Below, in pieces: positions 9,827-49,437 of a stretch of 64,000 nucleotides of DNA (its first letter is position 1; the number at the start of each line of letters is the position of its first letter). Location: contig NC_016943.1 in the NCBI RefSeq assembly GCF_000284015.1, forward strand, positions 1,095,541 to 1,159,540, written 5' to 3'. Below the pieces are notes generated by a model. It had not been told where the DNA came from. It made no database searches and saw only the letters and a list, made by a program, of their open reading frames with translations. Made by a program: the position numbers and the translations under genes. The DNA comes from Blastococcus saxobsidens DD2 (lineage in GTDB: Bacteria; Actinomycetota; Actinomycetes; Mycobacteriales; Geodermatophilaceae).

Positions 9827-11095
9827 GTGCCATTCGACTCCACTCCGCGCCCCATCCCGGTGCCGCTCCCGCAGGTCCCGCGCGCGGTGCTGACCGTCTC
9901 CGGCGCGGACCGGCCCGGTGTCACCGCCCAGTTGTTCGCCGCGCTGGCCGACAGCGAGGCGGGCGTGCCCGCGGTCGAGGTCCTCGATGTCGAGCAGGTG
10001 GTCGTGCACGGGCACCTGGTGCTCGGGGTCGTCGTCGGCGCGGCCGCCACCGACGGCGGGCCCGCCGTCGACGGGCCGACCCTCCTCGCCCGCCTGCGCC
10101 GGGTGGCGGACGACGTCTCGGCGGCGGTCGGCGTGGAGGTGACCGTGGAGTCGGCTTCCACCCCGGCGCGGGAGCCTGCGGCCGGGCGGGCGCACCACGT
10201 CATCGTGCTCGGCCGACCGGTCCCACCGGAGGCCGTGGCGGGCGCCGCCCGTGCCATCGCGGGCATCGGCGGCAACATCGACGCCATCCGGCGGCTCTCG
10301 GACCTCCCGGTGACCAGCTTCGAGCTGACCGTGTCGGGGACGGACGCGACGGCGCTGCGCACGGCGCTCGCGGAGGTCGCCACCGCCACCGGGGCGGACA
10401 TCGCCGTCGAGCGGGCGGGCCTGGCCCGGCGCAGCAAGCGGCTGATCGTCCTGGACGTGGACTCCACCCTGGTGCGCGGCGAGGTCATCGACGAACTGGC
10501 CGCCCGCGCCGGCCGGGCGGCGGAGGTCGCCCGGATCACGGCCGCCGCCATGAACGGCGAACTGGACTTCGCCGAGTCGCTCCGCGCCCGGGTCGCCGTC
10601 CTCGCCGGTCTGCCCGAGGAGGTGCTCGACGAGGTGCGCGAGCACCTGGTCCTCACCCCGGGAGCGCGCACCCTGATCCGGACGCTGCAGCGCCTCGGTT
10701 TCCGCTGCGGGATCGTCAGCGGCGGCTTCACCCAGATCACCGACCCGCTGGCCGAGAGCCTCGGCCTGGACTTCGCGGCGGCCAACACCCTGGAGGTGGT
10801 CGACGGCCGGCTGACCGGGGGCCTCGTCGGTGAAATCGTGGACCGCCCGGGGAAGGCGCGCGCGCTGGCCCGGTTCGCCGAGCAGTACGGCATCCCGCTG
10901 GAGCAGACGGTCGCGGTCGGGGACGGCGCCAACGACCTCGACATGCTCAACGCGGCGGGGCTGGGCATCGCCTTCAACGCCAAGCCGTTCGTGCGGGAGC
11001 AGGCGCACACGGCGCTCAACCAGCCCTACCTCGACGCCGTCCTGCAGGTCCTCGGTTTCACCCGTGACGAGGTGCTCGACGCCGGGCCTTGTTGA
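9827..11095 (+). CDS. serB: Phosphoserine phosphatase with ACT-like N-terminus
   Basis: A 422-residue enzyme for the last step of serine synthesis (phosphoserine to serine). Two ACT-like regulatory regions occupy about residues 10-200 (starting RAVLTVSGADRPGVTAQ), as in mycobacterial SerB2; the HAD phosphatase domain has DVDSTLVRGEV (nucleophile and acid/base Asp), SGGFTQI and GDGANDLDML. A GTG at 9827 follows a CACGAT -10-like hexamer by six bases, suggesting a leaderless start; an in-frame GTG at 9809 is the alternative. The stop codon lies inside the left arm of a perfect palindrome. Confidence 0.93.
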   Translation: MPFDSTPRPIPVPLPQVPRAVLTVSGADRPGVTAQLFAALADSEAGVPAVEVLDVEQVVVHGHLVLGVVVGAAATDGGPAVDGPTLLARLRRVADDVSAAVGVEVTVESASTPAREPAAGRAHHVIVLGRPVPPEAVAGAARAIAGIGGNIDAIRRLSDLPVTSFELTVSGTDATALRTALAEVATATGADIAVERAGLARRSKRLIVLDVDSTLVRGEVIDELAARAGRAAEVARITAAAMNGELDFAESLRARVAVLAGLPEEVLDEVREHLVLTPGARTLIRTLQRLGFRCGIVSGGFTQITDPLAESLGLDFAAANTLEVVDGRLTGGLVGEIVDRPGKARALARFAEQYGIPLEQTVAVGDGANDLDMLNAAGLGIAFNAKPFVREQAHTALNQPYLDAVLQVLGFTRDEVLDAGPC

Positions 11096-11169
11096 TCAGG
11101 TGACCTGATCAACAAGGGTCCTGGCTCAGCACCGGTCGTGAGCCAGGACCCCACCAGGTGAGCCAGGAC
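11087..11169. repeat. Composite palindromic repeat at gene 3' end, copy 1 (intact)
   Basis: Module one is a perfect palindrome centred on GATCAGGTGACCTGATC with 15-bp arms (11087-11101 and 11103-11117), overlapping the serB stop codon. Module two is a hairpin with arms GGGTCCTGGCTCA and TGAGCCAGGACCC (11116-11128 and 11139-11151). A tail CACCAGGTGAGCCAGGAC ends at 11169. A near-identical copy lies at 46091-46168, and a copy split by an insertion sequence lies at 47242-47290 plus 48874-48903. It sits between convergent serB and pncA, so termination is a likely by-product. Confidence 0.9.
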
Positions 11170-11186
11170 GTCAGCGGCGTACCGGC

Positions 11187-46090: not shown

Positions 46091-46168
46091 TTGATCAGGT
46101 GACCTGATCGTTTTGGGTCCTGGCTCACGACCGGTGGTGAGCCAGGACCACACCAGGTGAGCCAGGAC
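46091..46168. repeat. Composite palindromic repeat at gene 3' end, copy 2 (intact)
   Basis: GATCAGGTGACCTGATC (46093-46109), then the hairpin GGTCCTGGCTCAC/GTGAGCCAGGACC (46116-46128 and 46137-46149), then the tail CACCAGGTGAGCCAGGAC ending at 46168. Very similar to 11087-11169. Lies between pruA and the convergent AbiEi/DUF559 gene, whose stop is 7 bp from the tail. Confidence 0.9.
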
Positions 46169-46175
46169 GCCCCGA

Positions 46176-47241: not shown

Positions 47242-47290
47242 GTCCTGGCTCACCTCGTGGGGTCCTGGCTCACCGTCGACGCTGAGCCAG
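47242..47290 (-). repeat. Composite palindromic repeat, copy 3, left half (split by IS110)
   Basis: Reverse orientation relative to copies 1 and 2: GTCCTGGCTCACCTCGTGGG, GTCCTGGCTCACC and GCTGAGCCAG follow the consensus to the CAG at 47288-47290, where similarity stops. Confidence 0.85.
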
Positions 47291-47512
47291 CATCCTTGGC
47301 CTTTCCGGCCGCGCGTTCCGCGCTGAAAATGTGCGTCGGGTCGCCCGCCGACGCACGTTGTCCCTGATCGTGGGAGGTCGTGAGCCAGCAGGGTGCCGAG
47401 GGCTGCGCCGTGGGCGCTTCCTTGTCGCTTCGAGCACGCGGATCAGATTGCTCGTCCTGCCCAGCAGTCCTCGCGGGCGGCCCCCCGAGGGGTCGGTGAG
47501 AGCGAGGAGGTC
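47291..47512 (+). ncRNA. Candidate bridge RNA region of the IS110 element
   Basis: IS110-group elements encode a bridge RNA in the left non-coding end. This 222-nt end holds a hairpin TGCGTCGG/CCGACGCA (about 47332-47355) and, at 47376-47388, GGTCGTGAGCCAG, identical to the 13 nt left of the core in repeat copy 1 and on the minus strand of copy 2. That is the expected position type for a left target guide. CGGATCAG near 47439 resembles the right end CGGGTCAG and might be a donor guide. RNA ends are not determined. Confidence 0.5.
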
Positions 47513-48784
47513 ATGGTGCTTCAGGAAGATCAACAGGTCGAGGAGATCGTCGCCCGGGTGGCGGCGCTGGATATCGGCAAGGCCGAGCTGGTGTGCTGTG
47601 TGCGGGTGCCGCATCCGACCCGGCCGGGCAAGCGGATGCAGGAGGTGGTCACCTATCGCACGATGACCCGCTCACTGCTGGTGATGGCCGACCGGCTGGC
47701 CGGGCTGGGCGTCAGCGAGGTGGTCATGGAGGCCACCAGCGACTACTGGAAGCCGCCGTACTACCTGCTCGAGGCCCGCGGATTGAACCCGAAGCTGGTC
47801 AACGCCCGCGACGTCAAGCACCTGCCCGGCCGGCCCAAGACCGACAAGCTGGACGCGGTGTGGCTGGCCAAGCTGGCCGAGCGCGGCATGCTGCGGCCCA
47901 GCTTCGTGCCTCCGCCGAAGATCCGCCGGCTGCGCGATGTCACCCGCTACCGCGCCGATCTGGTCGAGGTGCGTACCGCGGAGAAGCAGCGGGTGGAGAA
48001 GCTGCTCGAAGACGCACAGATCAAGCTGTCGGTGGTGGCCAGCGACATCTTCGGCGCCTCCGGGCGGGACATGCTGGCCGCGCTGATCGCCGGCACCCGC
48101 GACCCCAAGGTGCTCGCCGCGCTGGCCCGGGGCCGGATGCGCGCCAAGCTCACCGACCTGGAAGAGGCGTTCACCGGCTACTTCACCGATCACCACGCCC
48201 GGCTGCTGACCACGATGCTGGCCCGCATCGACGGCCTCTCAGCCGACATCGCCGAGCTCGAGGTGATGATCGAGGAGATGGTCGCCCCTTTCACCGACGC
48301 GGTGGCGAAGCTCGATGAGATCCCCGGCATCGGCCGCGTCGCCGCCAGCGCAATCCTGGCCGAGATCGGCCTGGACATGAGTCGGTTCCCCACCGACGGG
48401 CACCTGTGCGCCTGGGCCCGCTTCGCCCCCGGCACCAAGGAATCGGCCGGCAAGAAGAAGGGCGCCGGCAGCACCGGCCACGGAAACCGCTACCTGGCCA
48501 AAGTCATCGGCGAGGCCGTCGCCGGCGCGGCGAAGACCGACACCTTCCTCGGCGAGCGATATCGCCGCCTGGCCCGCCGCCGCGGCGGGAAGAAGGCCAT
48601 GGTCGCCGTCGGCCGCTCCATGCTGGTGATCATCTGGCATCTGCTGTCTGATCCCGACGCCCGATTCGTCGACCTCGGCTCGGACTTCCACGCCAAACGA
48701 ACCGACCCCGACCGGCGACGCCGCGCTCACGTTCACCAGCTCGAAGCCCTCGGCTACACCGTCACCCTCACCCCAGCCGCCTAA
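47513..48784 (+). CDS. IS110-family transposase (recombinase)
   Basis: A 423-residue DEDD-type transposase. The RuvC-like domain has Asp20 in LDIGKAE, Glu in MEATSDYWKP, and Asp residues in KTDKLDAVWLAKL. The C-terminal transposase_20 domain has IPGIGRVAASAILAEIG and the conserved GSTGHGNRYL region with the candidate catalytic Ser. The ATG at 47513 follows a strong gaggaggt Shine-Dalgarno. The gene is intact, so the element may be active. Confidence 0.95.
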   Translation: MVLQEDQQVEEIVARVAALDIGKAELVCCVRVPHPTRPGKRMQEVVTYRTMTRSLLVMADRLAGLGVSEVVMEATSDYWKPPYYLLEARGLNPKLVNARDVKHLPGRPKTDKLDAVWLAKLAERGMLRPSFVPPPKIRRLRDVTRYRADLVEVRTAEKQRVEKLLEDAQIKLSVVASDIFGASGRDMLAALIAGTRDPKVLAALARGRMRAKLTDLEEAFTGYFTDHHARLLTTMLARIDGLSADIAELEVMIEEMVAPFTDAVAKLDEIPGIGRVAASAILAEIGLDMSRFPTDGHLCAWARFAPGTKESAGKKKGAGSTGHGNRYLAKVIGEAVAGAAKTDTFLGERYRRLARRRGGKKAMVAVGRSMLVIIWHLLSDPDARFVDLGSDFHAKRTDPDRRRRAHVHQLEALGYTVTLTPAA

Positions 48785-48873
48785 CCCCACAAGCGTTCGC
48801 CCGTCCCCGACTCGGCGCAGCCCCAAGGCCGAGCCGTCGGTTCCGTTCGCCCGTACCCCAGTCATTTTCGGGT

Positions 48874-48903
48874 CAGGACCCAGAACGATCAGGTGACCTG
48901 ATC
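48874..48903 (-). repeat. Composite palindromic repeat, copy 3, right half
   Basis: CAGGACCCAGAAC followed by GATCAGGTGACCTGATC (48887-48903). The palindrome encodes the last four residues (DQVT) and stop of the DUF488 gene on the minus strand. Confidence 0.85.
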
Positions 48904-49437
48904 ACGATCCGGGGCCGCCGGCCAGTGGACCTGCCCGTCGGGGCGGAGCACGGCGCCGTCGGAGGGCCGGTGCGGGGTCAGCCGGCCGTCGGGCATCAGG
49001 TGGCTGACCGGCTCTCCGCGGGCGACGACGGCGACGTCGGCGATCAGCCGGCGGTGGCAGCGCCACCACACCGCCTCGCTGCACATGACCGCGACCGTGC
49101 GACCAGCCGCCTCGGCGAGCACCTGGTCGAGCCCGGCGACGAACTCCACCGTGCGGGTGTGCGCCGCGTAGGCGGCGAACTGCGCCACGGTCCACCAGTC
49201 GTCGACGACCGGGTCACCGGCCGCAAGCCGCCGCCGCCCCCCGAGGCGTTCCTCCCACCGGTAGCCGATGCCGGCGGCCGGCAGCCACTCGGCCAGCGCC
49301 TCGCGCCGGGAGTCCGGGTTGTTCCGGCTGCCGGGGAAGCGGCGGACGTCGACGAGCAGGTCCACCCCGGCCCCGGAGAGGCGGGCGCCCAGGCGGTCGC
49401 GATCCTCGGACCCGTGGCCCACGGTCATCAGCGGCAC
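48889..49437 (-). CDS. DUF488 family protein
   Basis: A 182-residue protein with the DUF488 start TVGHGSEDRDRL, VDVRRFPGSRNN, the central WEERLGGRRR and the conserved Cys/His cluster VMCSEAVWWRCHRRLIAD. Function is unknown; the cysteines may bind metal or be catalytic. Its final residues DQVT and stop come from the palindromic repeat, so insertion of the repeat probably altered the original C-terminus. Confidence 0.87.
   Translation of the reverse strand: MPLMTVGHGSEDRDRLGARLSGAGVDLLVDVRRFPGSRNNPDSRREALAEWLPAAGIGYRWEERLGGRRRLAAGDPVVDDWWTVAQFAAYAAHTRTVEFVAGLDQVLAEAAGRTVAVMCSEAVWWRCHRRLIADVAVVARGEPVSHLMPDGRLTPHRPSDGAVLRPDGQVHWPAAPDRDQVT

Follow-up and report, generated by a model that had tools for sequence, protein, structure and literature searches.

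The window analyzed here is a 64,000-nucleotide stretch of the Blastococcus saxobsidens DD2 genome, and coordinates below are positions within it unless a relative is named. At 47291-48876 on the + strand lies a complete insertion sequence (IS) of the IS110 group, 1,586 bp long when one copy of the AG core is counted at the right end. The genome (4.88 Mb, one contig) carries five near-identical copies of this element, with protein identities of 99-100%, and its limits are those of the stretch common to the five copies between diverging flanks. The encoded transposase/recombinase is 423 amino acids long (47513-48784, +) and contains the DEDD_Tnp_IS110 and Transposase_20 domains of the IS110/IS1111 family (PF01548 and PF02371, both above the Pfam cut-off, with E values of 9.6e-26 and 2e-15), in agreement with the IS110-group identity proposed in a preliminary description of this DNA. 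Among proteins of solved structure, the nearest by sequence are IS621 (8wt6) and ISCro4 (9t56); the ES of IS621 aligns with the ES of APGTKESAG in our transposase, where the published SG motif reads SA. The non-coding DNA is distributed as 222 nt upstream of the transposase gene (47291-47512) versus 92 nt downstream, the layout of the IS110 group and unlike that of the IS1111 group. By eye, in the absence of a dedicated search, the element ends show no subterminal inverted repeats (~11-13 bp) of the IS1111 type.

All five copies are inserted at the same point, TGAGCCAG|GAC, of a palindrome resembling repetitive extragenic palindromes (REPs). In the window, the left flank TGAGCCAG (47283-47290) is one half of the interrupted repeat and contains the left target GAGCCAG (47284-47290, +), which ends in the AG core, lies inside repeat copy 3 and is identical at all five sites. 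The element's right end, CGGGTCAG with its AG core, occupies 48869-48876 (+), and the right target GAC (48877-48879, +) adjoins the element in every copy, the flank reading GACCC from 48877. Insertion is site-specific, and the flank and the right end have only the short core, AG (CT on the opposite strand), in common.

On comparative grounds, the best explanation of the whole is very probably that the left end encodes a bridge RNA that guides insertion into this repeat. A copy of the left target, GAGCCAG, lies within the left end itself (47382-47388, +), and we compared it with the corresponding stretches of homologous elements. Homologues came from genome contigs, a family search and plasmids, the last of which proved useful, while phylum- and class-wide protein searches returned almost no further ones. 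The comparison comprised 51 guide-site pairs with 21 different guides, with swapped pairs as the control. Concordance is confined to positions -1 to -7: guide and left flank agree completely at the AG core and are identical in 234 of the 255 cells between -3 and -7, whereas at -8 to -12 own pairs agree only as well as swapped ones, at chance level, because the GGTCGT found there is conserved scaffold. The 21 departures at -3 to -7 are also patterned, with 16 compatible with wobble pairing by an RNA of + strand sequence and only 1 of the opposite kind, compared with 18.5% and 14.9% of the mismatches after swapping. These wobble departures are guide G with target A or guide U with target C, both pairable by a + strand RNA with the bottom strand. 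The extent of the concordance and the wobble pattern together therefore point to a 7-nt guide, GAGCCAG, carried by an RNA of + strand sequence.

The same correspondence holds when the site is not chosen in advance, since an element's own guide matches 6-10 nt of its site in 24 of 25 elements, and in 23 of those it lies at near-constant spacing from a conserved anchor, upstream of it by 33-38 nt. In a scan along the RNA (20 elements, 1000 permutations), the left-target signal peaks at -11 to +1 (z 12.7, reached in 0 of 1000 permutations). The 72%-identical relative in Kibdelosporangium philippinense is present in 14 copies, all inserted after GCRTTAG (GCGTTAG or GCATTAG), and carries GCGTTAG at the aligned guide position of the left end. 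Elements of Microtetraspora, Sphaerisporangium and Nonomuraea have GCTTTAG as both guide and site; Blastococcus and Geodermatophilus relatives pair the guide TCTGAAG with sites YCTRAAG, and an Amycolatopsis relative pairs GCAAAAG with ACAAAAG. In one K. philippinense element (L066, 2174-2383) the left end is duplicated, with a 101-bp unit running from the target GCGTTAG exactly to the guide GCGTTAG. Two origins would fit this arrangement: the guide DNA may itself have been targeted, or slippage may have occurred between target and guide, which by design form direct repeats spaced by 101 bp.

A structure derived from the alignment of 25 left ends supplies the covarying fold for which the preliminary description had called. 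The consensus has three stems (closing, target-loop and donor-loop) and two hairpins, one preceding the guide and the other the donor guide; 96.9% of cells are paired, against 38-47% in slid versions, and 19 pairs have changes on both sides, compared with 8.0 in shuffles. Covariation supports both arms of the closing stem (GGTCGCCCG at 47339-47347 and CGGGCGGCC at 47474-47482, both +; columns 54-64), with both sides changed in 7 of 11 pairs, and both arms of the donor-loop stem (GAGGGCTGC at 47398-47406 and GCAGTCCTC at 47464-47472, both +), with both sides changed in 6 of 7 aligned pairs. The target-loop stem (columns 68-71/117-120) has no double changes and is supported by conservation and one-sided changes. 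Ahead of the guide stands the conserved hairpin GATC-GTGGGA-GGTC (47366-47379, +; columns 82-84/103-105 and 93-94/101-102). The left end of the window copy differs from those of the other four copies at a few bases (47303-47359), and these changes strengthen a local hairpin, GTGCGTCGG/CCGACGCAC, which would be in competition with the conserved fold.

The donor side is represented by a putative left-donor guide, CGGATCAG, at 47439-47446 (+), where the preliminary description had already placed a candidate resembling the right end, and the family-wide scan has a left-donor peak at this position (+45 to +57, z 4.6, 0 of 1000 permutations). In the Actinomycetospora relative L091, CGGGTCAG stands at both the donor guide and the right end. 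In the window element, the guide has one A/G mismatch to its right end, despite which the five copies, being nearly identical, have presumably moved recently. We also observe a right end duplicated in tandem in L002 (TCATTTTCGGGTCAG twice) and, with a longer unit, in L133.

The target belongs to a palindromic REP-like family with ~30 loci in the genome. Two intact copies lie in the window, copy 1 at approximately 11093-11171 (+) and copy 2 at approximately 46092-46170 (+), and copy 3 (-) is split by the IS into one half at 47242-47290 and another at about 48877-48904. Members consist of two palindromes (GATCAGGTGACCTGATC and CTGGCTCA...TGAGCCAG), often with a third copy of TGAGCCAG. As part of this family, GTGAGCCAGGAC is enriched in the genome, with 53 occurrences versus 1 for the reversed control; the 8-mer TGAGCCAG by itself is not (271 versus 254 sites). 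GAGCCAG occurs 897 times and GAGCCAGGAC 84 times, and nevertheless GAC stands on the right in five of five insertions, so the right side is read too, or else insertions into genes have been lost. The repeat is patchily distributed across the genus, being common in about half of 23 genomes, and its abundance in some that lack the IS indicates that it is independent of the element. No Y1 (RAYT-type) transposase is present in the B. saxobsidens DD2 genome.

The preliminary description had proposed a longer guide, the 13-mer GGTCGTGAGCCAG at 47376-47388 (+), on the strength of its exact identity to stretches of two intact repeats, at 11134-11146 (+) and 46120-46132 (-). These are its only three occurrences in the window, and in a genome-wide survey of repeat and IS loci it is found six times, in four IS left ends and two intact repeats. 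The matches are exact, though the 13-mer includes the CAG that it was said to adjoin on the left. A bridge-RNA-type guide in the left end is upheld by the covariation of guide and target, but its length is not: own and swapped pairs agree equally at -8 to -12, and homologues inserted at unrelated sites keep the first six letters and change the last seven with the site. Relatives whose targets are unrelated keep GGYCGT unchanged just 5' of the guide, and GGTC (47376-47379), the first four nucleotides of the 13-mer, is the 3' arm of the conserved hairpin. By this comparison the predicted guide is 7 nt long, five nucleotides plus the AG core, with a match far above chance, and the remaining 6 nt of the 13-mer lie outside it. 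The letters of the repeat family at the first positions of the 13-mer vary, GGTCG being found only in the two intact window copies and in no occupied site. Since all five real insertions occurred without the extra match, the claim that the intact copies are better-matched, preferred targets fails, and we reject the 13-mer as a mark of preferred sites; a 13-nt guide favoring fully matched repeats is correspondingly very improbable. We consider it slightly less probable still that the transposase protein alone recognizes the repeat, with the left-end match left over from an older insertion or serving as a binding site. Such a view could draw on the L066 duplication, which is joined exactly at the guide, and on the bridge RNA being a predicted one, but it sits poorly with 21 guide types that change with the target on one conserved scaffold, with departures that obey RNA wobble rules and with a scaffold that covaries as RNA. 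Several observations do weigh against a bridge RNA as we describe it. Single-sequence folding is barely better than in shuffles (z -1.42), the minimum-energy fold of the single sequence differs from the consensus, and an Rfam search of the left-end region returned no matching bridge-RNA family. The donor guide has an A·C mismatch to its own right end, a one-letter difference (A versus G) in all five copies, and a right-donor guide sought in the family scan was not found, in a test with little power because the start of the left end is nearly invariant (mostly TC). Restriction of insertions to the repeat could partly reflect selection against insertions in genes, and production of the RNA, its binding to the enzyme and a circular intermediate are presumed steps.

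The right target appears to be read by a guide that the preliminary description, whose reading is otherwise upheld in part, had not noticed. The family scan has a right-target peak at -35 to -23, 5' of the left-target guide (z 4.6, 0 of 1000 permutations), and the signal at this 5' site (z 4.35, p 0.0002) persists with any one clade left out (p ≤ 0.007). Exact 7-nt cases are CTCTCCT with AG|GAGAG in L079, TCACTCT with AG|AGTGA in L139 and CGACACA with TG|TGTCG in L044, and L042 pairs GGTGGCT with AG|CCGCC through one wobble. In the window element the candidate is GTCC (47360-47363, +), which would pair with the core G plus GAC and leave the core A unpaired; at 3-4 bp it is weak, and we infer it by extension from the family, for which comparison supports such a guide. 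The match is slight or absent in more than half of the elements and in the 14 K. philippinense sites, so the right guide seems optional. In the TG-core group (~50% identity) taken alone the test falls short of significance (p 0.45 with wobble, 0.06 strict), despite the exact L044 case. Alternatively, the guide for the right target could lie 3' of that for the left target, the IS621 arrangement, with the 5' signal arising by chance; this would suit the weak signal between +20 and +40 (z 2.0, p 0.04) and the several elements, that of the window included, with only 2-4 bp at the 5' site. We regard it as unlikely in view of the strength and persistence of the 5' signal, the exact 7-nt matches in L079, L139 and L044, and the lack of significance in the stretch directly 3' of the left guide (p 0.16). 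The data thus suggest an unexpected order in this clade, with the right-target guide on the 5' side of the left-target guide.

Taken together, comparison supports the left-target guide, the donor guide, the scaffold structure and the insertion site as parts of the predicted system, and at family level it also supports the right-target guide. The bridge RNA would be ~150 nt long (about 47335-47485) and run in the same direction as the transposase gene. Its GAGCCAG guide would pair with the bottom strand of the left target, a shorter guide just 5' of it would pair with the top strand of the right target, and the donor guide CGGATCAG would pair with the element's right end. The DEDD/serine recombinase would then recombine circle and target at the AG core, and copies would land at GAGCC-AG|GAC in the REP-like palindrome.

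The predicted system shares with IS621 a left-end RNA located upstream of the transposase gene, guides for both target and donor, a bottom-strand left-target guide, a 2-nt core common to donor and target, a REP-type target and tolerance of rG:dT wobble. It differs in that IS621 places the left guide 5' and the right guide 3', its left guide being 9 nt long and its core CT (PMC11208160, PMC11208158), whereas here the guide order is reversed, the left guide has 7 nt including the core, and the core is AG. At 423 amino acids the transposase falls within the range of the subgroup of IS110 itself (395-455 amino acids) and above that of the IS621 (Piv) branch (315-330) (PMC11187229). The seekRNA of ISEc21, of the IS110 family, is likewise encoded upstream of the transposase gene and matches both target strands, but with the bottom-strand match first (PMC11187229), unlike the order here, with the top-strand complement first. 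Although a bottom-strand guide 5' of the top-strand guide counts as an IS110-group trait, our family scan puts the top-strand guide 5'; the former order is known from few studied members and may therefore not define the group. The IS1111-group seekRNAs (ISEc11, ISKpn4, ISPa11) have a guide order the reverse of that of ISEc21, as here, and ISPa11 also targets REPs, but they are encoded downstream of the transposase gene in elements with subterminal inverted repeats (PMC11187229). Across our elements, the 5' guides show a tendency to finish with CU and the 3' guides with AG, as is the case in IS621. Most simply, the order may reflect an IS621-like RNA loop with target and donor DNA inverted relative to the transposase. 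That the actinobacterial clade uses its bridge RNA in this inverted way, the 3' guide reading the target half beside the RNA-bearing end, is to us an evenly balanced proposition. It would join an IS110 RNA position to an IS1111 guide order, with a strong left guide and a right guide that often goes unused.

The fixed insertion point recalls the REP-recognizing IS elements of Pseudomonas, Sinorhizobium and Neisseria, which enter palindromic extragenic repeats at one constant position (PMC1525189); the repeat here differs in being actinobacterial and in a genome without a Y1 transposase. L041, L042 and relatives (Blastococcus/Geodermatophilus type) are inserted in another small palindrome, CTGAAG-GCGG/CCGC-CTTCAG, in either orientation. 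L058, a 52%-identical relative from another genus of the family, apparently occupies another position in a similar REP-like repeat; its guide, TGCTGAG, is different and for the most part matches. The L078/L079 insertion site, CCGCTTTAG|GAGAGCGG, resembles a segment of a tRNA gene, and in L079 GATTCGAACCTGCGG is nearby.

The 21 guides and 51 sites form a clean natural data set that fixes guide length and wobble rules for the long-transposase IS110 subgroup, beyond the tests in the experimental papers cited above. If the reversed order is true, the right-target guide of this clade would be wrongly located by the published rules for bridge-RNA discovery and reprogramming. It would then also follow that the position of the RNA and the order of its guides can be uncoupled, which bears on how the IS110 and IS1111 groups diverged.
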